DNA of 64,000 bases from Ruminococcaceae bacterium Marseille-P2935 (GTDB lineage: Bacteria; Bacillota; Clostridia; Oscillospirales; Ruminococcaceae): positions 469,596 through 533,595 of the forward strand of contig LT629951.1 of assembly GCA_900104565.1 (NCBI GenBank), in the 5' to 3' direction. This document shows positions 8,719 through 22,898 of this stretch, in pieces. The first letter of the stretch is position 1, and each line of letters starts with the position of its first letter. Below the pieces are notes generated by a model. The model made no database searches. It was not told the DNA's origin and was given only the letters and a program-made list of their open reading frames with translations. The position numbers and the translations under genes are program-made.

Positions 8719-10812
8719 TTATCTGACACTGAAGAGAAGGTCGCCATAGGTAGGAAAAGGCCAATAGGTTTGCGCGGTGAGCATTTCCAGCTCGTCAGCA
8801 ACTGCCCGGGCTTCCTGCATGGTGGCAAACACACTGTGGCGGTAGAAATTAGCGCATTCCTGCATGCTGTCATAATCCTTCACCTTAAGCAGCAGCCCTT
8901 CCAGAGCCTGTGACTTTTTATATAGGCAGGCAGACAAAGAAGCTATCTTCTGCAACAGGGTTTCTTCTACCGAGCAATCCAATGAAGACGAAACGGCTTT
9001 TTTGCCGGCGATGGTATCCGACAATTCCTTTTGGTAAGCGCATACGGCTGGAAGAATTTCTTTTTTGATCATATCCAGCATAGTAAGGGCTTCAATGTTT
9101 AACACCTTGCAGTAGTTTTCCAAAAGAATTTCATATCTGGAATGCATTTCTTCTTCGGTAAAAATTTTATGATGAGTAAACAGTTCAATGTTCTTTTTAC
9201 TAATAAAATAGGGCAGCGCATCGGGGGTAGAAGTAAGGTTCAGCAGTCCGCGTTTTGCCGCTTCTTCCTTCCAGGTGTCAGAATATCCGTCGCCGTTAAA
9301 GATGATCCGCTTGTGTTCTTTGATTGCTTTTCGAATCAGTTCGCCCAGTGCCGCGTTAAAGTCTTCTGCCCCTTCCAACTGGTCGGCAAATTGACGCAGC
9401 TCCTCGGCAACAATGGTATTCAGCACAATGTTGGGGCCCGCAATCGAGAGGGTAGAGCCCAGCATACGGAATTCAAATTTATTGCCGGTAAAAGCAAAGG
9501 GGGAGGTGCGGTTACGGTCTGTAGTATCCTTGGGGAAGTGAGGCAGCACATCCACGCCGATTTCCAGTTCGGTTTTTTCTTTTGCACTGTAAGCCGAATC
9601 GGTTTCAATCGACTCCAGAATGTCGGTCAGTTCATCACCCAGGAAGATAGAGATGATGGCCGGAGGCGCTTCGTTTGCGCCCAGACGGTGATCGTTTGCC
9701 GCACTGGCTACCGATACCCGCAGCAGGTCCTGGTATTCATCTACCGCTTTAATTACTGCGGTAAGGAACAGCAAAAACTGAGCGTTTTCTTTGGGGGAAT
9801 CTCCGGGATCTAACAGGTTTGTACCCGAACTGGTAGAGATGGACCAGTTGTTATGTTTGCCGCTGCCGTTTACCCCGGCAAAGGGTTTTTCGTGCAGAAT
9901 GCAGACCATGCCATGGCGGGCCGCAACTTTTTTCATTAGCTCCATAGTCAGCTGGTTGTGGTCGGTAGCAATATTGGTTGTGGTAAAAATAGGGGCCAGC
10001 TCGTGTTGAGCAGGGGCTACCTCGTTATGTTCTGTTTTTGCCAAAATTCCCAGTTTCCACAACTCCTCGTTCAAATCCTTCATAAAGGCCTGAACCCGGG
10101 GTTTTATGGCGCCAAAGTAATGATCGTCCAGCTCCTGGCCTTTAGGAGCTTTTGCACCGAACAGGGTGCGGCCAGTGTAAATTAAGTCTTTGCGCTGGTC
10201 ATAAACTTCTTTATCCACCAAAAAATATTCCTGTTCGGGGCCAACGGTGGTAACTACACGGGTGACACTGTCGTTGCCAAACAGTTTTAAAATGCGCAGC
10301 GCCTGCTGGTTAATGACCTCCATAGAGCGAAGCAAGGGGGTTTTCTTGTCAAGTACTTCACCGGTGTAAGAACAGAACGCTGTTGGAATACACAGGGTGC
10401 CGTCTTTAATAAAGGCGTAGGAGGTGGGGTCCCAGGCGGTGTAACCCCTGGCTTCAAAGGTAGCCCGCAGACCGCCTGAGGGGAAGGAGGATGCATCGGG
10501 TTCGCCCTTCACCAGCTCCTTACCCGAAAACTCCATAATCACATGGCCGTCGGCGGAAGGAGAAATAAAGCTGTCGTGCTTTTCAGCAGTGATGCCAGTC
10601 ATGGGCTGGAACCAGTGGGTATAATGGGTGACTCCCTTTTCAATTGCCCAGTCCTTCATGGCGTTTGCTACAACATTTGCCACGTTAGGGTCCAGGGTTT
10701 TCCCATCGGCAATCGTTTTTTTCAATGCTTTAAAGGTTTCTTTGGGAAGCCGTTCCTTCATAACCGACTCATTGAACACCATGCTGCCAAATAATTCTGG
10801 TAAATAGCTCAT
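8719..10812 (-). CDS. glnN: Glutamine synthetase type III
   Basis: A 697-residue GSIII, the large form found in Bacteroidetes, cyanobacteria and Clostridia, which makes glutamine from glutamate, ammonia and ATP. GSIII signatures are visible: [41 protein letters not shown] and [20 protein letters not shown]. The length matches the family (about 690-730). It is transcribed away from the glutamate synthase operon. Its leader has a near-consensus promoter and then an intrinsic terminator overlapped by a hairpin with an AAAGGC loop, so expression probably depends on antitermination. The cell also carries a type I enzyme at 16912. Confidence 0.95.
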
Positions 10813-10882: not shown

Positions 10883-10924
10883 AAAAAAGGCGCTGTGAGC
10901 ATTTGCCCACAGCGCCTTTGCTGT
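10883..10924 (-). promoter_or_regulatory. glnN leader terminator/antiterminator
   Basis: On the minus strand the leader first shows ACAGC-AAAGGC-GCTGT (10924 to 10909), a hairpin with a six-base loop having A at position 1 and G at position 4. Its 3' arm and loop overlap the 5' arm of an intrinsic terminator, GGCGCTGTG/CACAGCGCC (10916 to 10889), followed by TTTTTT. The two folds exclude each other. This is the logic of ANTAR antitermination, although only one of the usual two hexaloop hairpins is evident. Confidence 0.75.
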
Positions 10925-10934
10925 TTATGGTGCC

Positions 10935-10964
10935 ATTATATGCCCTGCTTGTGCATTCTGTCAA
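10935..10964 (-). promoter_or_regulatory. glnN promoter
   Basis: TTGACA (10964-10959) and TATAAT (10940-10935) are separated by 18 bp. Both boxes are perfect matches to the housekeeping consensus. The predicted start is near 10928, a few bases before the AAAGGC hairpin. Confidence 0.85.
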
Positions 10965-11075
10965 CGAGGAAATTTTGAAAAAAAGTGCATTTGTAGCATT
11001 GTACAGAGAATAAGTACCCAGATAAAATGAGTTTATGCAAACTGCAAGAAAGTTTTTGATACAATACAATTTCTA

Positions 11076-11104
11076 TTGACGACGCGCATATTTTGTTATA
11101 GGAT
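11076..11104 (+). promoter_or_regulatory. Glutamate synthase operon promoter
   Basis: TTGACG (11076-11081), a 17-bp spacer and TAGGAT (11099-11104). The predicted start is near 11111, just before the hexaloop hairpin, as in glnN. Confidence 0.65.
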
Positions 11105-11111
11105 AAATGCA

Positions 11112-11178
11112 ATGAACAAAGGCGTTCATCAAAGGATAGGCCGGTTTTGGCCCTGTCTTTTGATGAACGCCTTTTTTT
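11112..11178 (+). promoter_or_regulatory. Glutamate synthase leader terminator/antiterminator
   Basis: ATGAAC-AAAGGC-GTTCAT (11112-11129) forms a 6-bp hairpin with the same loop as in the glnN leader. The alternative fold pairs GGCGTTCATCAAA (11121-11133) with TTTGATGAACGCC (11159-11171), an intrinsic terminator followed by TTTTTTT. The stems of the two leaders differ in sequence while the loop is identical, which points to recognition of the loop, most likely by the ANTAR protein at 18267. Confidence 0.78.
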
Positions 11179-11201: not shown

Positions 11202-12293
11202 ATGATCAGAGAAGGTGAGGTCCGAATTCCTGCCGGATGTGCCATATCAGGCATTTTTTCCAGAAAAGGAAAACGGATTGGAGGGGAAGCGATTATCGAT
11301 TCTATCGCCGTTATGCATGACCGTAGCAATGGGCTGGGCGGCGGCTTTGCCGGCTATGGAATTTATCCCCAATATAAAGATTCCTACGCGTTTCATATTT
11401 TTTATGACAATCTGACAGCGAAGGCGGCTTGCGAAAAATTTTTGGAAGAGCATTTTGATGTGGAAAACCTTTCTAAAATTCCCACCCGCAAAATTCCACA
11501 AATTACAGGCGAGCCCCTTATCTGGCGGTATTTTGTAAATCCCCTGCATGTCAAACTGGTAGAAAGCCAGCTGGATGAAAAAGAGTTTACCGCCCGGTGC
11601 GTCATTAAAATCAACACCTCCATTGACGGGGCGTACGTGTTTTCTTCCGGTAAAAACATGGGGGTGTTTAAGGCGGTGGGCTACCCCGAGGATGTGGGGC
11701 GGTTTTACCGGCTGGAAGAGTACGAAGGTTACTGCTGGACCGCTCATGGCAGGTACCCAACCAACACGCCAGGCTGGTGGGGCGGTGCTCACCCCTTTGC
11801 ACTGCTGGATTATTCTGTAGTGCATAACGGCGAGATTTCCTCTTATGACGCCAACCGCCGGTTTATCGAGATGTTTGGCTACAAATGTACCCTGCTGACC
11901 GACACCGAGGTCATTACCTATATGATTGATTACCTGGTCAGACGAAAAGGTCTTACCCTAAAAGAGATGGCCGATGTGATTGCCGCCCCTTTCTGGGCAG
12001 CCATTGACCAGCTTCCGCCAAAAGAACGGGAATATTATACCTATTTAAGAAATACCTTTGCCAGTATGCTGATTACCGGTCCATTTTCAATTTTGCTGGG
12101 GTTTGAGGGCGGTATGATGGCGCTGAACGACCGGCTAAAGCTTCGCTCCATGGTAGTTGGCGAAAAAGGCGATATGGTTTATGTCGCCAGCGAAGAATGT
12201 GCCATCAGAGCGATTCAGCCTATTTTAGACCGGGTTTGGGCGCCCGCTGGCGGCGAACCGGTCATCTTTACCCTGGAAGGAGGGAGAAACTGA
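11202..12293 (+). CDS. Glutamate synthase glutaminase-domain subunit
   Basis: A 363-residue class II glutamine amidotransferase corresponding to the N-terminal domain of GltB. It releases ammonia from glutamine. The nucleophile is Cys13 in IPAGCAISGIF, after a short N-terminal extension usual for stand-alone subunits. Also visible are GGGFAGYGIYP, ARYPTNTPGWWGGAHPF-like residues and VVHNGEISSYDANR. ATG 11202 follows AAAAGGAGG; upstream in-frame codons fall inside the leader terminator, so they are rejected. Its stop overlaps the next ATG. First gene of a five-gene split glutamate synthase operon. Confidence 0.92.
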   Translation: MIREGEVRIPAGCAISGIFSRKGKRIGGEAIIDSIAVMHDRSNGLGGGFAGYGIYPQYKDSYAFHIFYDNLTAKAACEKFLEEHFDVENLSKIPTRKIPQITGEPLIWRYFVNPLHVKLVESQLDEKEFTARCVIKINTSIDGAYVFSSGKNMGVFKAVGYPEDVGRFYRLEEYEGYCWTAHGRYPTNTPGWWGGAHPFALLDYSVVHNGEISSYDANRRFIEMFGYKCTLLTDTEVITYMIDYLVRRKGLTLKEMADVIAAPFWAAIDQLPPKEREYYTYLRNTFASMLITGPFSILLGFEGGMMALNDRLKLRSMVVGEKGDMVYVASEECAIRAIQPILDRVWAPAGGEPVIFTLEGGRN

Positions 12294-13798
12294 TGCCGAT
12301 TGACTTTTTATACCCCGAATATGAAGTGGTTCGGGACCAGAGCCGCTGTATTACCTGCCGGGTATGTGAACGGCAGTGCGCCAACGAGGTGCACCGGCTG
12401 GATGAAGAGCTGCACCTTATGAAAAGTGACGAAAGCAAATGCGTCAACTGCCATCGGTGTGTTTCCCTCTGCCCCACCAGGGCACTGAAAATTGTAAAAA
12501 CAGACCATACCTTTAAAATGAACTCCAACTGGACGGGGGAGGCTATTTCTGACATCTACCGCCAGGCAGGTACCGGCGGTGTATTGCTTTCCTCTATGGG
12601 AAATCCCAAAGAATTTCCTGTTTATTGGGATAAAATCCTACTCAATGCATCCCAGGTTACCAACCCGTCCATTGACCCACTGCGTGAACCTATGGAAACC
12701 CGGACCTTCTTGGGGAAAAAACCGGAGAAGGTTGTACGGGACGAAAACGGTAACATTTGCAGTAACCTTTCTCCCCAACTGGAACTGGCTGTACCGGTGA
12801 TGTTTTCGGCCATGAGTTATGGTTCCATCAGCTATAACGCCCACGAAAGCCTGGCCAGAGCGGCACAGCAGCTGGGTATTTACTACAATACCGGGGAAGG
12901 CGGCCTGCATGAGGATTTTTACCAGTACGGGGCCAATACCATTGTTCAGGTGGCGTCCGGTCGGTTTGGGGTGTATAAAGACTATTTAGAAGCTGGGGCT
13001 GCCATTGAAATTAAAATGGGCCAGGGCGCAAAGCCCGGTATCGGCGGGCACCTGCCAGGCACCAAAATTGTGGGCGATATTTCTAAAACCCGAATGATCC
13101 CCGAGGGTTCCGACGCAATTTCGCCCGCACCCCACCACGATATTTATTCCATCGAAGACCTGCGGCAGCTGGTTTTCTCACTGAAAGAGGCTACCGAATA
13201 CAAAAAGCCGGTGATTGTTAAAATTGCGGCTGTACACAATGTAGCGGCAATTGCCAGTGGTATTGCCCGTTCGGGGGCTGATATTATTGCAATTGACGGT
13301 TTCCGTGGGGGCACCGGAGCAGCCCCCACCCTCATTCGCGACAATGTGGGAATACCCATTGAGCTGGCATTGGCAAGCGTTGACCAGCGTTTAAGAGAAG
13401 AGGGCATTCGTGACAATGTGTCGGTTGTCTGCTCGGGCAGTATTCGAAGCAGTGCGGATGTGGTGAAAGCGATTGCCCTGGGGGCAGACGCCGTGTATAT
13501 TGCTACGGCGGCGCTATTGGCGTTAGGGTGCCACCTTTGCCGCAGCTGCCATGCAGGAAAATGCAACTGGGGAATTGCGACCCAGCGCCCAGAACTGGTA
13601 AAGAGGCTAAACCCCGATATTGGCTGCCAGCGGCTGGTTAATTTGGTTACGGCATGGAACCATGAGATTAAAGAGATGATGGGCGGAATGGGAATTAATT
13701 CGATTGAAGCGCTTAGGGGCAACCGGCTGATGCTTCGGGGAATTGGCCTGACCGACCGGGAACTGAAGATTCTTGGTATTCAGCATGCCGGCGAATAG
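12293..13798 (+). CDS. Glutamate synthase FMN/Fe-S subunit (archaeal-type GltB)
   Basis: A 501-residue synthase domain that binds FMN and reductively aminates 2-oxoglutarate to glutamate. Two ferredoxin clusters sit at the N-terminus (Cys19/22/25/29 and Cys50/53/56/60). A further cysteine group, CHLCRSCHAGKC, near residue 412 matches the Fe-S region of the FMN domain, and GFRGGTGAAPT is the glycine-rich FMN segment. The ATG at 12293 overlaps the preceding stop (TGATG); the reading frame is open further upstream, but those residues are not family-like. The ferredoxin-type N-terminus is characteristic of archaeal and clostridial split enzymes. Confidence 0.93.
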   Translation: MPIDFLYPEYEVVRDQSRCITCRVCERQCANEVHRLDEELHLMKSDESKCVNCHRCVSLCPTRALKIVKTDHTFKMNSNWTGEAISDIYRQAGTGGVLLSSMGNPKEFPVYWDKILLNASQVTNPSIDPLREPMETRTFLGKKPEKVVRDENGNICSNLSPQLELAVPVMFSAMSYGSISYNAHESLARAAQQLGIYYNTGEGGLHEDFYQYGANTIVQVASGRFGVYKDYLEAGAAIEIKMGQGAKPGIGGHLPGTKIVGDISKTRMIPEGSDAISPAPHHDIYSIEDLRQLVFSLKEATEYKKPVIVKIAAVHNVAAIASGIARSGADIIAIDGFRGGTGAAPTLIRDNVGIPIELALASVDQRLREEGIRDNVSVVCSGSIRSSADVVKAIALGADAVYIATAALLALGCHLCRSCHAGKCNWGIATQRPELVKRLNPDIGCQRLVNLVTAWNHEIKEMMGGMGINSIEALRGNRLMLRGIGLTDRELKILGIQHAGE

Positions 13799-13815
13799 CG
13801 GGACGGAGGGACAGA

Positions 13816-14244
13816 ATGAAACGAATTTATGTGAACGAAAAATGGTGCCTGGGGTGCCATTTGTGCGAATATTACTGTGCCTTTGCCAATTCGGACGAAA
13901 ATGACATGGTAAAAGCGCTAAAAGATATTGTCATTCATCCCCGCATTAAAATCGAAGAGAAGAACGGAATCAGCTTTGCCGTTTCCTGCCGCCATTGTGA
14001 GGAACCGCTATGCGTCAAGGGCTGTATTACTGGGGCGCTCACCATAAAAGACGGTGTGATTCAAATTGACAGCAAAAAATGTGTCGGCTGCTATACCTGC
14101 ATATTAAGCTGCCCTTATGGCGCGGTTATGCCGTCCGATCATGGGGTTGTTCAAAAATGCGAGCTTTGCACGAAAAACCAAAGCGGCGATCCGGCTTGTG
14201 TAAAAGGCTGCCCCAATAAAGCAATTGTTTACGAGGAAAGGTAG
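13816..14244 (+). CDS. Polyferredoxin, 4Fe-4S (HycB/CooF-like)
   Basis: A 142-residue electron carrier with four cysteine groups: CLGCHLCEYYC, CRHCEEPLCVKGC, CVGCYTCILSC and CELCTKNQSGDPACVKGC. This is the pattern of HycB/CooF-type proteins with up to four 4Fe-4S clusters. It lies between the FMN subunit and the flavoprotein of the glutamate synthase operon, so it probably wires electrons from the flavoprotein to the synthase. It is soluble, with no signal peptide. Confidence 0.9.
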   Translation: MKRIYVNEKWCLGCHLCEYYCAFANSDENDMVKALKDIVIHPRIKIEEKNGISFAVSCRHCEEPLCVKGCITGALTIKDGVIQIDSKKCVGCYTCILSCPYGAVMPSDHGVVQKCELCTKNQSGDPACVKGCPNKAIVYEER

Positions 14245-14252
14245 GTGCCGGA

Positions 14253-15485
14253 ATGAACTATGTTATCATTGGAAACTCTGCAGCAGCAATTGGTTGTGTG
14301 GAAGGAATCCGCCAATTGGATTCCGAGGGGTCAATTACGATCATATCTGACGAGCCTTACCACACCTATTCCCGTCCGCTTATTTCCTATTTATTATATG
14401 GAAAAACCGATGAACAACGGATGAAATACCGTCCGGATGATTTTTATGAAAAGAATGGCTGTAAAACGATTCTGGGGAAAAAAACAGTGGACATTTGCAC
14501 CGAAAAAAAGCAGGCGATATTGGAGGATGGCACCCAAATTCCTTACGATAAACTGCTCATTGCTACTGGCTCCCGGCCGTTTGTTCCCCCCATAAAAGGC
14601 TTGGACCAGGTACAAAACCAGTTCCGATTTATGAAGCTGGAGGATGCAAAAGCCTTGGAAAAGGCCTTAACCCCCGACAGCCGTGTGCTGATTTTAGGAG
14701 CCGGGTTAATCGGGTTAAAATGTGCCGAAGGAATACGCAGCCGGGTACAGTCCCTTACTGTTGTGGATTTAGCTCCCCGGATTCTACCGAACGTTTTAGA
14801 CGAACAAGCAGCTTCTATTGTGCAAAAGCATTTGGAAAAGCATGGCATAGAGTTTATTTTATCTGATTCAGTTGCGGTGTTCCAAGCCCAGCAGGCTACC
14901 CTGAAAAGCGGTAAAAAGGTACCGTTTGATGTTTTAGTGGTGGCGGTAGGCGTAAGGCCAAATACAGAGCTTGCTGCAAAAGCTGGCGCAGTCTGCCCGC
15001 GGGGGATTATGGTTGACGAGCACTGCAAAACGACCCTGACAGATATTTATGCCGCAGGGGATTGTACCGAAAGTATAGACATTACCACAGGCGAAGCCAA
15101 AATTTTGGCTCTGCTGCCCAACGCCTATATGCAGGGCGAATGCGCAGGGCTGTGTATGGCAGGCGGTCAAAAGTATTATAACCAGGCGATTCCCATGAAT
15201 GCCGTAGGCTTTTTTGAACTCCATATTATTACCGCTGGCAATTATGGCGGCGAGGAATACATTCAGTTGGACGAAAGTGGGTACAAAAAGCTGGTTACCA
15301 AAGATAATTTGTTAAAAGGTTATATTTTGGTGGGCCAGGTGGAACGGGCAGGAATTTATACCGCACTGATCCGGGAACGGACTCCGTTAGACACCATAGA
15401 TTTTGAACTGATTAAGCAAAAACCCCAGCTGATGGCGTTTTCCAAAGTACAGCGGGCAGAGAAACTGGGAGGTGCAAAGATATGA
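14253..15485 (+). CDS. FAD-dependent pyridine nucleotide oxidoreductase
   Basis: 410 residues of the Pyr_redox_2 family, resembling rubredoxin reductase and the N-terminal part of NirB. The FAD-binding fold opens with YVIIGNSAAAIGCVEG, a second nucleotide-binding fold appears at VLILGAGLIGLKCAEG, and the ATG/GD motifs are at LIATGSRPF and IYAAGDCTES. Within this operon it likely takes electrons from NAD(P)H and passes them to the ferredoxin and the FMN subunit, replacing the usual GltD. It overlaps the next gene by 4 bp. Confidence 0.88.
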   Translation: MNYVIIGNSAAAIGCVEGIRQLDSEGSITIISDEPYHTYSRPLISYLLYGKTDEQRMKYRPDDFYEKNGCKTILGKKTVDICTEKKQAILEDGTQIPYDKLLIATGSRPFVPPIKGLDQVQNQFRFMKLEDAKALEKALTPDSRVLILGAGLIGLKCAEGIRSRVQSLTVVDLAPRILPNVLDEQAASIVQKHLEKHGIEFILSDSVAVFQAQQATLKSGKKVPFDVLVVAVGVRPNTELAAKAGAVCPRGIMVDEHCKTTLTDIYAAGDCTESIDITTGEAKILALLPNAYMQGECAGLCMAGGQKYYNQAIPMNAVGFFELHIITAGNYGGEEYIQLDESGYKKLVTKDNLLKGYILVGQVERAGIYTALIRERTPLDTIDFELIKQKPQLMAFSKVQRAEKLGGAKI

Positions 15486-16204
15486 AAATTGATGCGGCAA
15501 ACATGCATTTTCAAACCCTTAACGAGAAGATCCGTGGAACCCGCGCAGGCAATGTTGTAATTGAAAACTGTATAGGGCAGCGGTATATTGCCAGCGGGCT
15601 GGCCAAAAAGAAGATACGGATTTTGGGTACCCCGGGGAATGCCTTGGGAGCATATTTAAACGGAGCGCAGGTAACCGTAGAGGGAAATGCACAGGATGCT
15701 GTTGGAGATACCATGAATGACGGAACGATTTATATTCATGGTTCCTCAGGGGATGCGATTGGCTACGCAATGCGCGGAGGGAAAATTTTTGTGAAAGGCA
15801 GCACCGGCTACCGGGCGGGGATTCATATGAAAGCATATAAGGAGAAATTGCCGGTGTTGGTAATTGGCGGTCATGCCGGAAGCTTTTTAGGCGAGTACCA
15901 GGCAGGCGGCGTAATTATTGTATTGGGGCTCAATACCACTTCAAAAATTCCGGTTGGTTATTTTTGCGGAACCGGCATGCATGGCGGCAAAATCTATCTT
16001 CGCTGTGACGAGCTTCCCCATGACCTGCCCAGTCAGGTAGCGGCGAAAAAAGCCGCGCCAGAGGATTTAAAAGAGATTGAAGAGTATATTGATGAGTTTT
16101 GCCAGGAATTTGAGGCCAGTAAAGCAGAAATTATGACCCATAATTTTTATGTGCTAACCCCAAATACGAAAAACCCATACAAACAGCTTTATACCCATAA
16201 TTAA
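15482..16204 (+). CDS. Glutamate synthase GXGXG-domain subunit
   Basis: A 240-residue protein corresponding to the C-terminal beta-helix domain of GltB. Repeated glycine-rich turns (GTPGNALGAYLNG, GNAQDAVGDTMNDG, GSSGDAIGYAMRGG) give the right-handed helix that positions the ammonia channel. The C-terminal extension after about residue 180 is acidic and helical. With the glutaminase and FMN subunits it completes a GltB split over three genes. Overlapping ATGA with the upstream gene indicates translational coupling. Confidence 0.9.
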   Translation: MKIDAANMHFQTLNEKIRGTRAGNVVIENCIGQRYIASGLAKKKIRILGTPGNALGAYLNGAQVTVEGNAQDAVGDTMNDGTIYIHGSSGDAIGYAMRGGKIFVKGSTGYRAGIHMKAYKEKLPVLVIGGHAGSFLGEYQAGGVIIVLGLNTTSKIPVGYFCGTGMHGGKIYLRCDELPHDLPSQVAAKKAAPEDLKEIEEYIDEFCQEFEASKAEIMTHNFYVLTPNTKNPYKQLYTHN

Positions 16205-16740
16205 ACCGTGGTATAATAACCTCACCCACTAACAAAATCGAAGATTTTGAGTGGCCCCGAGCATACCCCGACGCTGACGCATAAAGAATAACCTCACGGC
16301 GTATATCTCAACGGTTCTTTTGGTTGCTACCCTGTACCTGTCAACGGGTAGCCGGATGCCTTGCAAACATGGGAAGCCCCGAGGGTACGGCCGGCAGTTG
16401 CACAGCGACGCGCTGTCGGTTAGCTAAGGCGGCGCTTGGAGCGGTGCAACCAAGGACGACTATGCAGGGCATGAAACCAGGCGTCAGCTGTTTCAGGTGT
16501 AAGAGACGTATGACCTTTTTAGTACTTTTCCAGCAGGGAAGAGCCGCAGCAGTGACCTGCTAGGGCAACCGAACGTCGTGAAGAAAGAACCAGTGAACTG
16601 GTAACAGAGAAATACCGGGGGCCCGCAGGCCGAGACAGTGAGGCACTTGGCCCGCAGCAAAAGTACTTGCTCCCCGCATAGGAGAAAACCGCATTCATTA
16701 CTAAAATCAAAGATTTTAAACGGGCCCCTAAAGGTTTATA
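16205..16740. repeat. Hairpin repeat plus GC-rich block, copy 2
   Basis: This gap upstream of glnA holds the same family as 1-700. Hairpin units appear at 16225-16262 (CCACT..AAAATC-GAA-GATTTT..AGTGG, then CCCCGAG) and 16690-16735 (AAAATC-AAA-GATTTT, then GGGCCCC), with AATAACCTCAC at 16218 and 16288. The GC-rich companion block lies at 16330-16560. The hairpin arms differ from those at 58350 yet remain paired. No coding sequence is supported. 16741-16911 is an A+T-rich approach to glnA with no clear promoter. Confidence 0.8.
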
Positions 16741-16911: not shown

Positions 16912-18231
16912 ATGAATTACACAGCTAATGAAGTATTGCAGTTTGTTCAGGAGAATGATGTAAAGTTTATTCGGCTTGCGTTTTGCGATATCTTCGGAAC
17001 GCTAAAAAATATTGCCATCATGGCGGGGGAACTGCCGCGTGCAATGGAAAGCGGCATCTCTTTTGATGCGTCGGCTGTGAAGGGGTTTATGAATGCCAGC
17101 GAATCGGACCTGCTGCTTTTTCCCGACCCTTCGACTCTGGCGGTATTGCCCTGGCGTCCTCAGCAAGGGCGCGTGGTGCGGTTTTATTGTGATATTCGGT
17201 ATCCGGACGGACGGCCTTTTGAAGGTGATGGCCGCCAGTTGCTAAAAAAGGCAATTGATCGGGCCGCCCGAATGGGATTTCAATGCAAAATTGGTTCGGA
17301 ATGTGAATTTTACCTGTTTCAGACCGATGCGGATGGAAACCCAACCCTTAAGCCATATGACAATGCCGGGTACCTGGATGTCGCACCCCAGGATAAAGGC
17401 GAAAATATTCGCCGCGAGATCTGTCTGACATTGGAAGAGATGGGGATTACCCCCGAAAGCTCTCACCATGAGCAGGGCCCAGGTCAAAACGAGGTGGATT
17501 TTCATTATAATGATGCATTGGCAGCAGCGGATGATTTAATTTCATTTAAATCAGTGGTGAAAGCAGTCGCTGCTCGCAGCGGGCTATATGCCTCCTTCCT
17601 GCCAAAACCGATTAAAAACGCCAGCGGAAGCGGGCTTCATGTGAATATGTCGTTAAGCCAAAACGGTTGCAATATTTTTAAAACGGGCAACGGCCAGCAC
17701 TCGGAGCAAGCGGAAAGCTTTATTGCTGGTGTCCTAGCGCGTACGGCCGAAATTACCGCTTTTTTAAACCCTATTACAAATTCTTATCGCCGCTTCGGCT
17801 GTTTTGAGGCGCCGAAATATATCACCTGGTCTCATCAAAACCGTTCCCAGCTGATTCGAATTCCGGCAGCTACCGGCGAATATGCCCGTATGGAGCTTCG
17901 TTCTCCCGACCCGGCATGCAACCCATATTTTGTTTTTGCGCTGCTGATGCATGCGGGGTTAGACGGCATTGAGGAAACCGTGTCGCTTCCCAATCCGACG
18001 AATTTGAATTTATATACTGCAGAGAAATCCCTGACAGATGCGATTCCCACCCTGCCCGAAAACTTAGGGAATGCGGTGGAACTTGCGCGTACCAGCGGAT
18101 TTGTAAAAAAGGTGATTGCGCCAGCTACGTTAGAAAAATTTCTTCAATATAAAGAAGAGGAATGGAAAGCCTATCTGGAGTCGGAAGACCGTATTCAGTT
18201 AGAGGAGAATTTGTATTTCCCACGCATTTAA
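16912..18231 (+). CDS. glnA: Glutamine synthetase type I
   Basis: A 439-residue GSI of the shorter alpha type (no adenylylation insertion). Beta-grasp N-terminus (VKFIRLAFCDIFGTLKN), metal-binding GSECEFYLF, ESSHHEQGPGQNEVDFHY, KPIKNASGSGLHVNMSL and the active-site segment NRSQLIRIPA are visible. ATG 16912 follows TAGGGAGGA; the upstream extension of the frame is not family-like. The ANTAR gene lies 35 bp downstream and is probably co-transcribed, recalling glnA-nitR of Clostridium saccharobutylicum. A second, type III enzyme is at 8719. Confidence 0.95.
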   Translation: MNYTANEVLQFVQENDVKFIRLAFCDIFGTLKNIAIMAGELPRAMESGISFDASAVKGFMNASESDLLLFPDPSTLAVLPWRPQQGRVVRFYCDIRYPDGRPFEGDGRQLLKKAIDRAARMGFQCKIGSECEFYLFQTDADGNPTLKPYDNAGYLDVAPQDKGENIRREICLTLEEMGITPESSHHEQGPGQNEVDFHYNDALAAADDLISFKSVVKAVAARSGLYASFLPKPIKNASGSGLHVNMSLSQNGCNIFKTGNGQHSEQAESFIAGVLARTAEITAFLNPITNSYRRFGCFEAPKYITWSHQNRSQLIRIPAATGEYARMELRSPDPACNPYFVFALLMHAGLDGIEETVSLPNPTNLNLYTAEKSLTDAIPTLPENLGNAVELARTSGFVKKVIAPATLEKFLQYKEEEWKAYLESEDRIQLEENLYFPRI

Positions 18232-18266: not shown

Positions 18267-18842
18267 ATGGACTTGGACCGTGTGCTGATTGTATCTGGCA
18301 ACGAGAAAGGGGCAGCGCTTATCAGCGAGCTTCTTAACTCCAGTGCGCCTGCCACCATTTTGACTGCCCAAAATGGTGGGGAAGCCAGACGGATGCTTGC
18401 CCAGCAGGACTTTGACCTGGTTACCGTAAATACGCCCTTGCCTGATGAATTTGGGGCGGATTTTGCACTGTTTGTTACCGAATCCACAACAGCAGGGGTA
18501 CTGCTGCTGGTGAAAGCGGAGCTTGCGGATGACGTGGGGGCAAAGGTAGAAGATTATGGAGTGTTTGTTGTACCAAAACCTATTAGCCGGGCATTTTTTT
18601 ACCAGGCCTATAAACTGATTTTTGCTTCCAGAAGGCGGCTACAGGGCTTAAAAAAGGAAAATATTCAACTGCAAAATAAAATTGAAGAGATTCGTCTGGT
18701 TGACCGGGCAAAATGCTCGCTGATTCAATACTTAGGGCTGTCTGAGGCCCAAGCCCATCGGTACATTGAAAAACAGGCGATGGACTGCAGAATAACCCGC
18801 CGGGAGGTTGCGGAAAATATTTTAAAAACCTATGAGAGTTAA
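18267..18842 (+). CDS. ANTAR-domain transcription antiterminator with pseudo-receiver
   Basis: 191 residues. The N-terminal part (1-125) has the receiver-like fold pattern, but the acidic pair is missing (RVLIVSGNE) and the phosphoacceptor aspartate appears replaced by asparagine in LVTVNTPLPDEFG. The conserved lysine is kept (VVPKPIS). A coiled coil at about 128-148 leads into a C-terminal ANTAR domain (LIQYLGLSEAQAHRYIEKQAMD and on), which binds hexaloop RNA hairpins. Gene order behind glnA and the AAAGGC hairpins before glnN and the glutamate synthase operon make these its likely targets. Without a phosphorylation site, control may come from protein contact, possibly with glutamine synthetase. 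Confidence 0.88.
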   Translation: MDLDRVLIVSGNEKGAALISELLNSSAPATILTAQNGGEARRMLAQQDFDLVTVNTPLPDEFGADFALFVTESTTAGVLLLVKAELADDVGAKVEDYGVFVVPKPISRAFFYQAYKLIFASRRRLQGLKKENIQLQNKIEEIRLVDRAKCSLIQYLGLSEAQAHRYIEKQAMDCRITRREVAENILKTYES

Positions 18843-18907: not shown

Positions 18908-19264
18908 CATATCAGTTTAAAAAAGCCAGTTGCTATTGGTGCTTTTTATATTGTATCGTACGTCAGCATTCTTTGGTCGTGCCTGGCGGTGAAACAACAA
19001 AAACATAACTCGGTTTTTTATAATTTGCTGTATAAAGCTATCAAAACGTTTATCCGGGCCATTGGGGATAAAAGTCAAAAAAACTCAAATATATCCCTGC
19101 CCAGCAGGGACAGGTGATAAAAAATAATTGCTGTTCAGTGTGCATGGCCAGTGCTGTTACTGTAGAGGATCTTTCCGGTTATTTTAAATAGGAAAGCGTC
19201 GCTTTTTAGTACGGCCTGTATTCTATTAACGTATGTTTAGGAATGATAGAAAGGAACCTGTTTG
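18908..19264. other. Intergenic region before dapF
   Basis: No gene is supported. One short perfect hairpin, TCCCTGC-CCA-GCAGGGA, lies at 19094-19110. The promoter of the dapF operon must be here but I cannot place it with confidence. Confidence 0.5.
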
Positions 19265-20104
19265 ATGAAACTTCATTTTACCAAAATGCATGGTTGCGGG
19301 AATGACTATATTTATTTAAACTGTTTTGAACAGGCAGTTGAACATCCGGGGCAGCTTAGCATTTCATTATCTGACCGGCATTTTGGAATAGGCGGAGACG
19401 GGATTGTCCTCATCTGCCCGTCTCATGTTGCCGATGCCAAAATGCGTATGTTCAATTCGGACGGAAGCGAGGGCAAAATGTGCGGCAATGCCATTCGCTG
19501 TGTGGGAAAATACTTGTATGACCATGGCATGGTAAAAAGCGACAGCATTACAATTGAAACCTTAAGCGGAATTAAAACTTTAAAGCTATGCCTGGAAGAT
19601 GGAAGAATGTGTGCAGCCCGTGTGAATATGGGAAAGGCGGAGCTGAACCCGGCTGAAATTCCAGTTAACCTTACCGGAGATGCCGTGATAAACCATCCGC
19701 TTGTGGTAGAGAATAAGGAATATGCAGTGACCTGTGTATCCATGGGCAATCCCCACTGTGTGGTTTTTAAAAAGAATATCACTTGCTTAAAACTGAATCA
19801 AATTGGGCCAAAGTTTGAAAACCATCCGTTGTTTCCCCAGCGGATCAATACAGAATTTGTTCAGATGATTGATCCGTGCACTCTGCAAATGCGGGTTTGG
19901 GAGCGGGGCAGCGGAGAAACGCTGGCTTGCGGCACAGGTGCCTGTGCAGCAGCTGTAGCGGCGGTAGAAAATGGGTACTGTAAAAAGAACACCGATATTA
20001 CGGTAAAGCTGCCTGGTGGCGAACTTATTATTCGCTATACAGATGAGGCTGTATACATGACCGGCCCGGCAGCAGTTGTGTTTGAAGGGGAAGTTGAAGC
20101 ATGA
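19265..20104 (+). CDS. dapF: Diaminopimelate epimerase
   Basis: A 279-residue epimerase that converts LL- to meso-diaminopimelate for lysine and peptidoglycan. The two catalytic cysteines are Cys73 ([16 protein letters not shown]) and Cys222 ([12 protein letters not shown]). ATG 19265 is preceded by AAAGGAACC; the TTG three bases upstream is unlikely. The stop overlaps pyrG by 4 bp. It complements dapL two genes on, which makes the LL-isomer. Confidence 0.96.
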
Positions 20105-21723
20105 AGAAAAAAGAAACAAAATTTATTTTTGTAACCGGCGGTGTAGTATCCGGACTGGGCAAGGGGATTACGGCGGCTTCGCTGGGAAGGCTGTTAAAAT
20201 CGAGAGGCCTTAAAGTTGCGGCTCAAAAATTAGACCCCTATATTAACGTTGACCCCGGCACCATGAGCCCGTACCAGCATGGTGAGGTGTTTGTCACCGA
20301 AGACGGTGCCGAAACCGATTTGGATTTGGGCCATTACGAGCGGTTTATTGACGAGGATTTGAACAAATATTCCAACCTGACAACAGGCAAGGTGTACTGG
20401 AATGTATTAAATAAAGAGCGCCGGGGGGAATACCTGGGCGAAACCGTGCAGGTGATTCCCCATATTACCAACGAAATTAAAAGTTTTATTTATACCGTGG
20501 GGCAAAATACCGACGCCGACATTGTCATTACCGAAATTGGAGGTGTGGCCGGAGACATTGAAAGCCAGCCGTTTTTAGAGGCGATCCGGCAGGTTGGGCT
20601 GGAAAACCCGGGCAACACATTATTTATTCATGTGACGCTGGTGCCATATATTAAAAGTTCCGGCGAGCATAAATCCAAGCCAACCCAGCATTCGGTCAAA
20701 GAGCTGCAGTCGGTTGGCATTATGCCCAATATGATTATCTGCCGGTGCGATGAGCCGATCGATAAAACAGCACTTCAAAAAATTTCCCTGTTCTGCAATG
20801 TGAAACCGGATTGCGTGATTGAAAATATTACCCTGCCGGTACTGTACCAGGCGCCTGTGATGCTGGAAGAAAACCACCTGTCCGACATTGTATGCCGTGA
20901 GCTGGGGCTGCAGGTTCCGCCCTGTGATTTAACCGAATGGAAGGAGATGCTCAGTCGCATTGCGGGGAGAAGCAAACGAGTGAAAATTGGCCTAGTGGGC
21001 AAGTATGTGCGCCTGCACGACGCATACCTTTCGGTGGCCGAGGCGCTGCACCATGCCGGTTATGAAAACGGCTCGATGGTCGAAATTGATTGGATTGAGG
21101 CAGAACAGGTTACCGATGAAACGGTAGCAGAACTGTTAAAGGGCTGTAATGGAATTTTAGTCCCAGGCGGGTTTGGAGACCGGGGAATTGAAGGGAAAAT
21201 TATCGCCTGCCGTTATGCCAGGGAGAACAGTATTCCCTACCTGGGCATCTGCCTGGGAATGCAGATTGCGGTGATTGAATATGCCCGCCATGTGTTGGGT
21301 TTTGAAGGGGCCAATTCCAGCGAATTTGACCCCGAAAGCGCCTACCCCGTCATTGACCTTATGCCTGACCAGCAGGGAAACCTGCCCAAAGGCGGCACCA
21401 TGAGGCTGGGCGCGTACCCCTGCAAAATCCGGCCGGCGACTAAGATGTTTGAATCCTATGGGCAGGAGCTGATTCAGGAGCGTCACCGTCACCGGTATGA
21501 GTTTAACAACCGGTACCGGGAAGAATTTAGCCGGGGAGGTATGGTTTTTGCAGGTGCTTCGCCGGATGACCGCTTAATTGAAGCGGTAGAGCTGCCGGGG
21601 TATGACTTTTTTGTGGGGGTACAGTACCACCCCGAATTTAAGAGCAGGCCCAACAAGGCGCACCCGCTCTTCCGGGAATTTGTAAAAGCTGCCCTGAGCC
21701 ATCAGCTGGAGGAATTGAGATGA
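20101..21723 (+). CDS. pyrG: CTP synthase
   Basis: 540 residues. The N-terminal amidoligase domain begins [20 protein letters not shown] with its ATP loop. The C-terminal class I amidotransferase domain has the nucleophile in YLGICLGMQ and the His/Glu pair in YHPEF. It forms CTP from UTP with glutamine as the nitrogen donor. It is coupled by ATGA overlaps to both dapF and dapL, an unusual setting that mixes lysine and pyrimidine synthesis. Confidence 0.97.
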
Positions 21724-22898
21724 GGATTAACGAGAATTATTGGAAGCTGCAGGACAGCTATTTATTTTCCACCATTGCCAAAAAGGTAAAAGCCTTTTTG
21801 GCAGAGCACCCGGACCAAAAAATCATTCGGCTGGGGATTGGTGACGTCACCCTGCCGCTGCCGGCAGCCGTTGTTTCGGCCATGCATGAGGCAGTGGATG
21901 AGATGGGGAAAAAGGAGTCGTTTCATGGGTATGGCCCCGAGCAGGGCTACAGTTTTTTAAAAACAGCCATTCAGGGCTATTATGCGCGCCTGCCGGTTAA
22001 GCTGGAAGAGGAAGAAATTTTTGTGAGCGACGGCGCCAAAAGCGATTTGGGCAATATTTTGGATCTGTTTGACCGGCACAATACCGTACTGGTGCCAGAC
22101 CCGGTATACCCGGTGTATGTAGATACCAATGTAATGGCTGGGCGCAATATTGTGTATATGAATGCCAACGAGCTGAATGGTTTTTTGCCGATGCCGGATG
22201 GGCAGGTTCAGGCGGATATTATCTACCTGTGTTCCCCGAATAATCCTACGGGCGCCGTTTATCATAAAACCCAGCTAAAAGCATGGGTGGATTATGCCCG
22301 CAGGCAGGGAGCGGTTATTTTGTTCGATGCGGCATATGAGGCGTTTATTAGCGATGAGTCGCTGCCCCGGAGCATTTTTGAAATTGATGGTGCCAGGGAA
22401 TGTGCGGTTGAGTTTTGCTCGTTTTCTAAAACAGCCGGCTTTACCGGTACTCGCTGTGGATACACCGTCGTACCCAAAGAGCTTACTTATGGAGGAACCA
22501 AACTGAACTCCATGTGGCTTCGCAGGCAGACGACAAAGTTTAACGGGGTTCCATACATTGTGCAAAAGGGCGCTTCCGCTGTCTTTTCAGAAGAAGGGCA
22601 GCGCCAGGTGAAGGCGAATATTGACTATTACAAAGAAAACGCCCGTATAATTGCAGACGCTCTCAAAAAGCAGGGCATTTGGTATACCGGCGGAGAAAAC
22701 TCTCCCTACTTATGGCTGAAATGCCCGGAGGGAAAATCTTCCTGGGAATATTTTGATTACCTGTTGACTCAGGCTGGTATCGTAGGTACCCCCGGTGCAG
22801 GTTTTGGAAAAAACGGGGAGGGATTCTTCCGTCTAACCGCTTTTGGTGACCGTGAAAACACCAAAGAGGCAGTACAGCGCCTGGCGTCTCTGAGATAA
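21720..22898 (+). CDS. dapL: LL-diaminopimelate aminotransferase
   Basis: 392 residues of the class I/II aminotransferase fold. It converts tetrahydrodipicolinate directly to LL-diaminopimelate with glutamate as amino donor. The PLP lysine is in [15 protein letters not shown], near residue 237. [11 protein letters not shown] near the N-terminus and PNNPTGAVY are typical of DapL. The length (about 390-410) fits. Presence beside dapF supports the succinylase-free lysine route. Confidence 0.93.

Follow-up and report, generated by a model that had tools for sequence, protein, structure and literature searches.

Single-hexaloop leaders at the predicted 5' ends of nitrogen-gene transcripts in Clostridia: a probable variant of ANTAR antitermination

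The divergent leaders of glnN and of the glutamate synthase operon in a 64,000-nucleotide stretch of the genome of Ruminococcaceae bacterium Marseille-P2935 (the whole of which is here called the window) each combine a promoter, a small hairpin with a single hexaloop close behind it, and an intrinsic terminator that reuses part of that hairpin. Very probably these leaders are attenuators, in which a dimer of the ANTAR protein encoded at 18267 binds the single hexaloop and blocks the terminator when nitrogen is limiting. The arrangement is best read as a form of ANTAR antitermination that uses one hexaloop at the 5' end of the transcript and acts in the metabolism of ammonia and glutamine. Two hexaloops make up the motif as published.

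The glnN gene and the split glutamate synthase operon are divergently oriented, with the two leaders between them, and are followed by a second glutamine synthetase gene and the ANTAR gene (Table 1). About 500 nucleotides without an evident gene (16210-16740) lie between the glutamate synthase operon and glnA; this segment has a structured look and is bordered by short AAAATC..GATTTT hairpins, and within it we found no Rfam match up to an E-value of 5 and one imperfect inverted repeat pair only. Downstream of the ANTAR gene, the region 19262-22898 encodes, by eye, dapF, pyrG and dapL; in relatives, genes of these kinds have modules of their own (L263 before dapF, L248 and L253 before pyrG, L249 before an aminotransferase gene).

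Table 1. Features of the window, numbered from its first nucleotide; R1 denotes a covariance model of the promoter and hairpin, without the terminator
Feature	Position	Strand	Basis
glnN, type III glutamine synthetase	8719..10812	minus	PF12437, E 7.6e-84
Leader of glnN, predicted intrinsic terminator; 5' arm = hexaloop + hairpin 3' arm	10883..10919	minus	-27.4 kcal/mol, z -8.1
Leader of glnN, candidate antiterminator hairpin ACAGC[AAAGGC]GCTGT, loop 10919-10914	10909..10924	minus	fold; kept in relatives
Promoter of glnN, TTGACA-18-TATAAT	10935..10964	minus	sequence; R1 match E 2.5e-7 (R1 trained on it)
Promoter of glutamate synthase operon, TTGACG-17-TAGGAT	11076..11104	plus	sequence; R1 match E 2.8e-5 (R1 trained on it)
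Leader of glutamate synthase operon, candidate antiterminator hairpin ATGAAC[AAAGGC]GTTCAT, loop 11118-11123	11112..11129	plus	sequence, fold
Leader of glutamate synthase operon, predicted intrinsic terminator	11118..11178	plus	-39.7 kcal/mol for 11118-11176, z -8.3
Split glutamate synthase operon, 5 genes	11202..16204	plus	class II amidotransferase + synthase core by domain match
Last three genes of the operon: ferredoxin-like, NAD(P)H oxidoreductase-like, GXGXG-like	within 11202..16204	plus	by eye
glnA, type I glutamine synthetase	16912..18231	plus	PF00120, E 1.4e-105; start by eye, searches used 16903
ANTAR protein gene, pseudo-receiver, Asn at phospho-Asp site	18267..18842	plus	PF03861, E 2.7e-17

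The first-pass annotation, made from the letters of the window, had described two divergent operons that start shortly before AAAGGC hairpins on different stems, and had claimed that loop and 3' arm double as the 5' arm of a terminator; the promoter positions agree with the former in both leaders and the latter is borne out by folding in both. With start sites deduced from the promoters and assumed to lie 7 nucleotides past the -10 box, transcription would begin at about 10928 for glnN and about 11111 for the glutamate synthase operon, and the hairpins would then begin at about +5 and +2 respectively. The small hairpins have predicted energies of -5.4 kcal/mol (glnN; 8 of 200 shuffles fold as well) and -4.3 kcal/mol (glutamate synthase; 1 of 200), and no shuffle among 200 equals the predicted energy of either terminator. 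When the whole early transcript is folded, the terminator wins over the small hairpin in both leaders and is far more stable by predicted energy. Both loops have A at position 1 and G at position 4, and both hairpins overlap an intrinsic terminator, as in the ANTAR target RNA. The bare hexamer AAAGGC is uninformative, with 88 copies within the window; it is the arrangement that exceeds chance. The covariance-model check envisaged in the first-pass annotation lent no support, the Rfam scan of the window yielding no family at the gathering score; with permissive settings the two leaders matched unrelated families 16 times, each time under the gathering score (best E 0.0019).

Comparison of 52 leaders from relatives and the window genome, 30 preceding glnN and 22 preceding the glutamate synthase amidotransferase gene (gltA), recovered a promoter and hairpin in 41, with the loop 11-18 nucleotides past the -10 box. 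In 39 of these 41 the loop begins with A, and all 39 fold into a terminator-like structure that uses the loop (-20.4 to -56.8 kcal/mol); the other two, L035 and L060, have the loop GAAGGC with G at position 1, and a further variant, AAGAGC, occurs in an otherwise similar module (L243). The hairpin lies at a larger or unclear distance from the promoter in 3 of the 52 (L055, L081, L061), and 8 have no module directly upstream (L042, L043, L045, L046, L049, L057, L066, L070). Among the latter, R1 places a hexaloop further upstream in L043 and L057 (before Amt-like genes) and in L049 (before asnA). By eye, L066 and L070 seem to hold degenerate remnants. Our extraction script recovered 40 of the 41 modules, missing L056, which nevertheless has the module and an R1 match; as the script accepted only stems of 4 or more pairs closed by C-G, with A2 and G4 in the loop, loop and pairing figures drawn from this extraction are biased, and the loop-blind scan presented below is the fair one. 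Similarly, the stem covariation score (0.716 versus 0.287 after shuffling) is inflated by the preselection of rows for pairing. The stems differ between glnN and gltA leaders, and six glnN leaders (L038, L040, L048, L053, L054, L056) carry a tandem pair of hexaloop-terminator units. A lack of such conservation had been named in advance as grounds for abandoning the ANTAR reading; instead, the relatives keep A1 and G4 of the loop, the paired arms and the terminator overlap.

The ANTAR gene that the first-pass annotation placed at 18267 is confirmed by the domain search, in which its product matches PF03861 with 62.7 bits against a cut-off of 27.3, and it is the sole ANTAR gene detected in the 2.67-Mb genome. 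The match of the receiver region to PF00072 reaches 28.5 bits, below the 30.2 cut-off. We aligned the protein with its next 29 best matches, placing Asn55 at the phosphorylation site by the receiver motif and alignment with EutV, and transferring the EutV residue numbering via one alignment. In these 30 proteins the phospho-Asp position is occupied by Asn in 27 and by Asp, Cys and Ser in one each. E160 and M172 are present in all 30, as in EutV, and position 164, Tyr in EutV, is His in all 30. In EutV, E160A and Y164A lower RNA binding about 60- and 55-fold and M172A abolishes it (PMC8934654). At the position of R142, another residue by which EutV contacts G4, 19 proteins have Ile and none has Arg; that of K143 is Arg or Lys in 28, that of K147 is Arg in 30, and those of N173, R175 and R177 are Asp in 29, Arg in 23 and Thr or Ser in 27. 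Among the best 80 named loci, chosen from more, the ANTAR gene directly follows glnA in 72 and does not in 5, and in 3 it is too close to the contig end. Since the phospho-Asp is missing and glnA is so regularly the upstream neighbor, the ANTAR protein is probably under the control of a partner, for which the neighboring gene's product, glutamine synthetase, is the most plausible candidate. In Bacillus, glutamine synthetase controls TnrA through direct contact (PMC6316151).

We searched R1 in 61 genomes of relatives and in 243 genomes of the class, each at least 90% complete; the two sets share 6 genomes, among them 4 (G000, G048, G054, G059) on which R1 was trained. Matches at E <=1e-4 occur in 54 of the 243 genomes, and by a tally compiled by eye from the match lists an ANTAR gene is present in 50 of these 54 versus 81 of the 189 without the module (p 9e-12, kinship ignored). 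An overlapping terminator, a feature absent from R1, was found in 28 of 28 newly fetched class-wide matches, these being the best match per genome rather than every match listed. Of the 61 relatives, for which the amount of sequence per genome was unequal, 42 have an ANTAR gene and in 19 none was detected; by script the module occurs in 37 of the former and 5 of the latter, and five ANTAR-bearing relatives (G010, G012, G027, G029, G056) have none in the stretches examined. Most weak matches to R1 are promoters with nothing else of the module. Among 20 fetched R1 regions, 17 have a hexaloop and an overlapping terminator by script, two have no hexaloop (L134, L138), and in L135 the terminator does not fit the hexaloop. 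Forty further regions (L265 repeating L140) divide into 14 with both, 4 with the hexaloop only and 22 with neither, with near misses by eye in L236, L243 and L258; none of the 13 that come from ANTAR-less genomes has both hexaloop and terminator.

The exceptions bear on the possibility that the hexaloop is bound by some other protein or acts by itself, with ANTAR co-occurrence reflecting shared lineages only. It would account for the four class-wide module genomes without ANTAR (G092, G096, G222, G240) and for the five ANTAR-less relatives with a scripted module (G030, G034, G035, G040, G041), which become six hexaloop leaders if one counts G052, where ANTAR was not detected and a hexaloop precedes asnA with no overlapping terminator by script. 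Two of these assemblies are very incomplete (G034 70%, G040 55%), and in some relatives the absence of ANTAR may be an assembly gap; G030 and G035 are both 98% complete, and there a profile of this ANTAR group gave receiver-like matches only. Given that the A1/G4 loop rule coincides with the published ANTAR rule, and given the class-wide association, we consider a different binder improbable and retain the 18267 ANTAR group as the likely ligand.

The genes behind the modules are, as judged from sequence, largely those of ammonia and glutamine metabolism. In relatives, NCBIfam matches identify ammonium transporters, asnA, asnB, the glutamate synthase large subunit, NADP glutamate dehydrogenase (gdhA), carA, purA, purB, purC, purF, pyrG, gatC, dapF, LL-diaminopimelate aminotransferase, a PII protein and ATP synthase subunit a, the purF, PII, ATP synthase, glutamate synthase and aminotransferase matches being below the curated cut-off, partly because gene fragments were searched. 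By eye, glnA and further glnN genes also follow modules, and in L124 (239-2041) the downstream gene encodes a fusion of an ammonium transporter and a PII domain. The purA (L132) and purB (L125) examples are from genomes without a detected ANTAR gene, and a second purA leader from an ANTAR genome (L252) has the hexaloop and failed the terminator test. The gene for ATP synthase subunit a, which one would not expect in a nitrogen regulon, is preceded by a hexaloop leader in L286 (G171), which has the terminator overlap, and in L135 (G054), which fails that test. The window's genome contains a third module, with the loop AACGGT and a terminator (L140 100-590; C6:213825), about 400 nucleotides ahead of a livG-like ABC transporter gene identified by eye, with another promoter between them.

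In 40 modules of the relatives examined, only 2-9 nucleotides of predicted transcript precede the stem core; none of the 40 has an upstream hexaloop, nor is there room for one, and hexaloops within 80 nucleotides downstream are at chance level (3 seen versus 2.6 expected). The second hexaloop P1, which in the ANTAR target RNA lies upstream across a short linker, is thus not found, and the first-pass annotation was correct in noting for the window that only one hexaloop hairpin is evident and that the start seems too close for a second. A long gap between -10 box and loop, considered as a hiding place for a first hairpin, was largely ruled out using a looser listing of 87 rows, of which 65 have a promoter score of at least 9 and 50 of those 65 a gap of at most 18 nucleotides. 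Named loci in it come from, among others, Acetanaerobacterium elongatum (L147), Papillibacter cinnamivorans, Clostridium methylpentosum, Clostridium cuniculi, Romboutsia lituseburensis, Sedimentibacter, Fusibacter, Anaerotruncus colihominis (modules in L213, strain DSM 17241) and a Treponema MAG with at least one similar module (L204). In 16 of the 87 rows some A1/G4 hexaloop with at least 3 pairs lies within 70 nucleotides upstream; of these 16 only two with a promoter score of at least 9 have it inside the predicted transcript, namely L148, apparently a chance match, and L194, whose stem has 3 A/T-rich pairs. A dual form is possible in L183 (a Spirochaetales MAG without a clear promoter and with a 5-pair hexaloop ACCGCA 25 nucleotides upstream), in L188, also without a clear promoter, and in L061, with a 3-pair AAAGGC hexaloop 55 nucleotides upstream.

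A second hexaloop could still take part if transcription began at an unmapped upstream site, or if a dimer bridged two nascent transcripts in trans, for example those of the divergent pair. The side-by-side, divergent placement of glnN and gltA in many relatives would suit such bridging, as would EutV crystals that show contact to hexaloops of different RNA molecules (PMC8934654), although the authors of that work judged trans contact unlikely. Dozens of genomes have near-consensus promoters within a narrow range of distances, which argues against an upstream start, and modules before asnA, amt and gdhA lack a divergent partner within the matched stretch, to which this observation pertains rather than to the flanks. 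We therefore hold participation of a second hexaloop to be unlikely and favor recognition of a single one.

The loop-blind scan covered 80 named loci around ANTAR genes of relatives (1.14 Mb; the best 80 of more) and returned 305 hexaloop hairpins overlapping a terminator. A promoter at module distance (score at least 9 of 12, 8-18 nucleotides from the loop) accompanies 30 of the 39 with loops of the form AANGR[CT] versus 7 of the 266 with other loops (Fisher p 6e-27). The 37 promoter-anchored cases have A1 in 34, A2 in 34 and G4 in 33, and all four bases occur at position 3 (A in 26, G in 5, T in 4, C in 2). That the leaders are constitutive attenuators or terminators of upstream transcription, the small hairpin being a by-product of repeats in the terminator arms, is very improbable in view of this promoter placement and of the constancy of G4 beside a variable position 3, even if the complement of AAAGGC, GCCTTT, is a natural base for a terminator, which might favor A-rich loops.

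Based on these observations we propose that ANTAR antitermination at these leaders operates as follows. By default, polymerase would start a few bases before the hexaloop hairpin, which would form first and, if unheld, be displaced by the stabler terminator hairpin, stopping transcription. Under nitrogen limitation the 18267 ANTAR dimer would bind the AAAGGC hexaloop, with G4 flipped out, at the 5' end of the nascent RNA; the small hairpin would thereby be locked, its loop and 3' arm kept from the terminator, and glnN and glutamate synthase expressed. There being no separate upstream recruitment hairpin, the dimer would be recruited otherwise. We infer that the 5' position matters, because the constant feature is placement right where transcripts from a strong promoter begin. 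The ANTAR interpretation put forward in the first-pass annotation is upheld by the conservation of A1/G4, arms and terminator overlap, by the co-occurrence with ANTAR genes and by the nitrogen targets. Several observations run counter to it: the EutV R142 position is without Arg in the 30 proteins, the loop variants GAAGGC and AAGAGC occur, and 81 class genomes with ANTAR have no module at E 1e-4. By analogy with E. faecalis, where both hairpins are required (PMC3369931, PMC8934654), one hexaloop might be insufficient. More tentatively, and with somewhat less than even confidence, we raise the possibility of a class-wide one-hexaloop family, in which the 5' position replaces the recruitment hairpin and a non-phosphorylated ANTAR dimer, released by the adjacently encoded glutamine synthetase, acts within the first ~20 nucleotides on a glutamine-economy regulon extending to purine, pyrimidine and tRNA amidation genes.

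Two hairpins define the dual-hexaloop motif of Ramesh et al., and induction was impaired when P1 was deleted. In the EutV model a dimer occupies one hexaloop at a time, with P1 as recruitment site (PMC8934654). The work on the 2022 EutV-RNA structure argues that one hexaloop is the minimal ANTAR site and leaves open antitermination by single hexaloops, E. faecalis needing P1; the same source reports that EutX has an additional hexaloop standing alone and that targets in mycobacteria sometimes depart from the dual motif, and it calls for more work on what single hexaloops do (PMC8934654). In the open-access literature searched, no single-hexaloop antiterminator leaders of this kind are described, and an earlier description is possible. 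Searches with the dual motif would be expected to miss them. The question of single-hexaloop antitermination now has natural material in these numerous leaders, whose one hexaloop lies within a narrow range of distances from a strong promoter. The variants GAAGGC (L035, L060) and AAGAGC (L243) are natural cases that bear on the A1/G4 rule, and the leaders together suggest that Clostridia have a nitrogen regulon based on RNA.

Among characterized systems, the closest parallel is provided by the EutV-controlled eut antiterminators of E. faecalis, which likewise have an A1/G4 hexaloop whose 3' arm overlaps an intrinsic terminator (PMC3369931, PMC8934654) and a protein combining a REC-like domain, a coiled coil and ANTAR, with the contact residues E160 and M172 kept. 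The eut leaders, however, have two hexaloops, whereas here there is one at the predicted 5' end of the transcript; furthermore, the receiver of the window protein lacks the phospho-Asp, its group has His for Tyr164 and mostly Ile for R142, and the modules precede genes of central nitrogen metabolism. According to a review, C. saccharobutylicum has an ANTAR protein, NitR, that induces GS/GOGAT genes when nitrogen is limiting (PMC6316151); by analogy of protein family, clostridial host and targets, the 18267 product is probably the same kind of regulator. AmiR of Pseudomonas aeruginosa is also a pseudo-receiver ANTAR protein, in its case under partner control (PMC8934654), and by alignment it too has His at the stacking position, but its partner is AmiC, an amide-binding protein, and the amiE leader structures resemble the dual eut hairpins (PMC3369936). 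Finally, the LicT/BglG RAT antiterminators share the principle that one protein-stabilized hairpin excludes the terminator (PMC3369931, PMC3369936), while belonging to another protein family with a different mode of RNA recognition.
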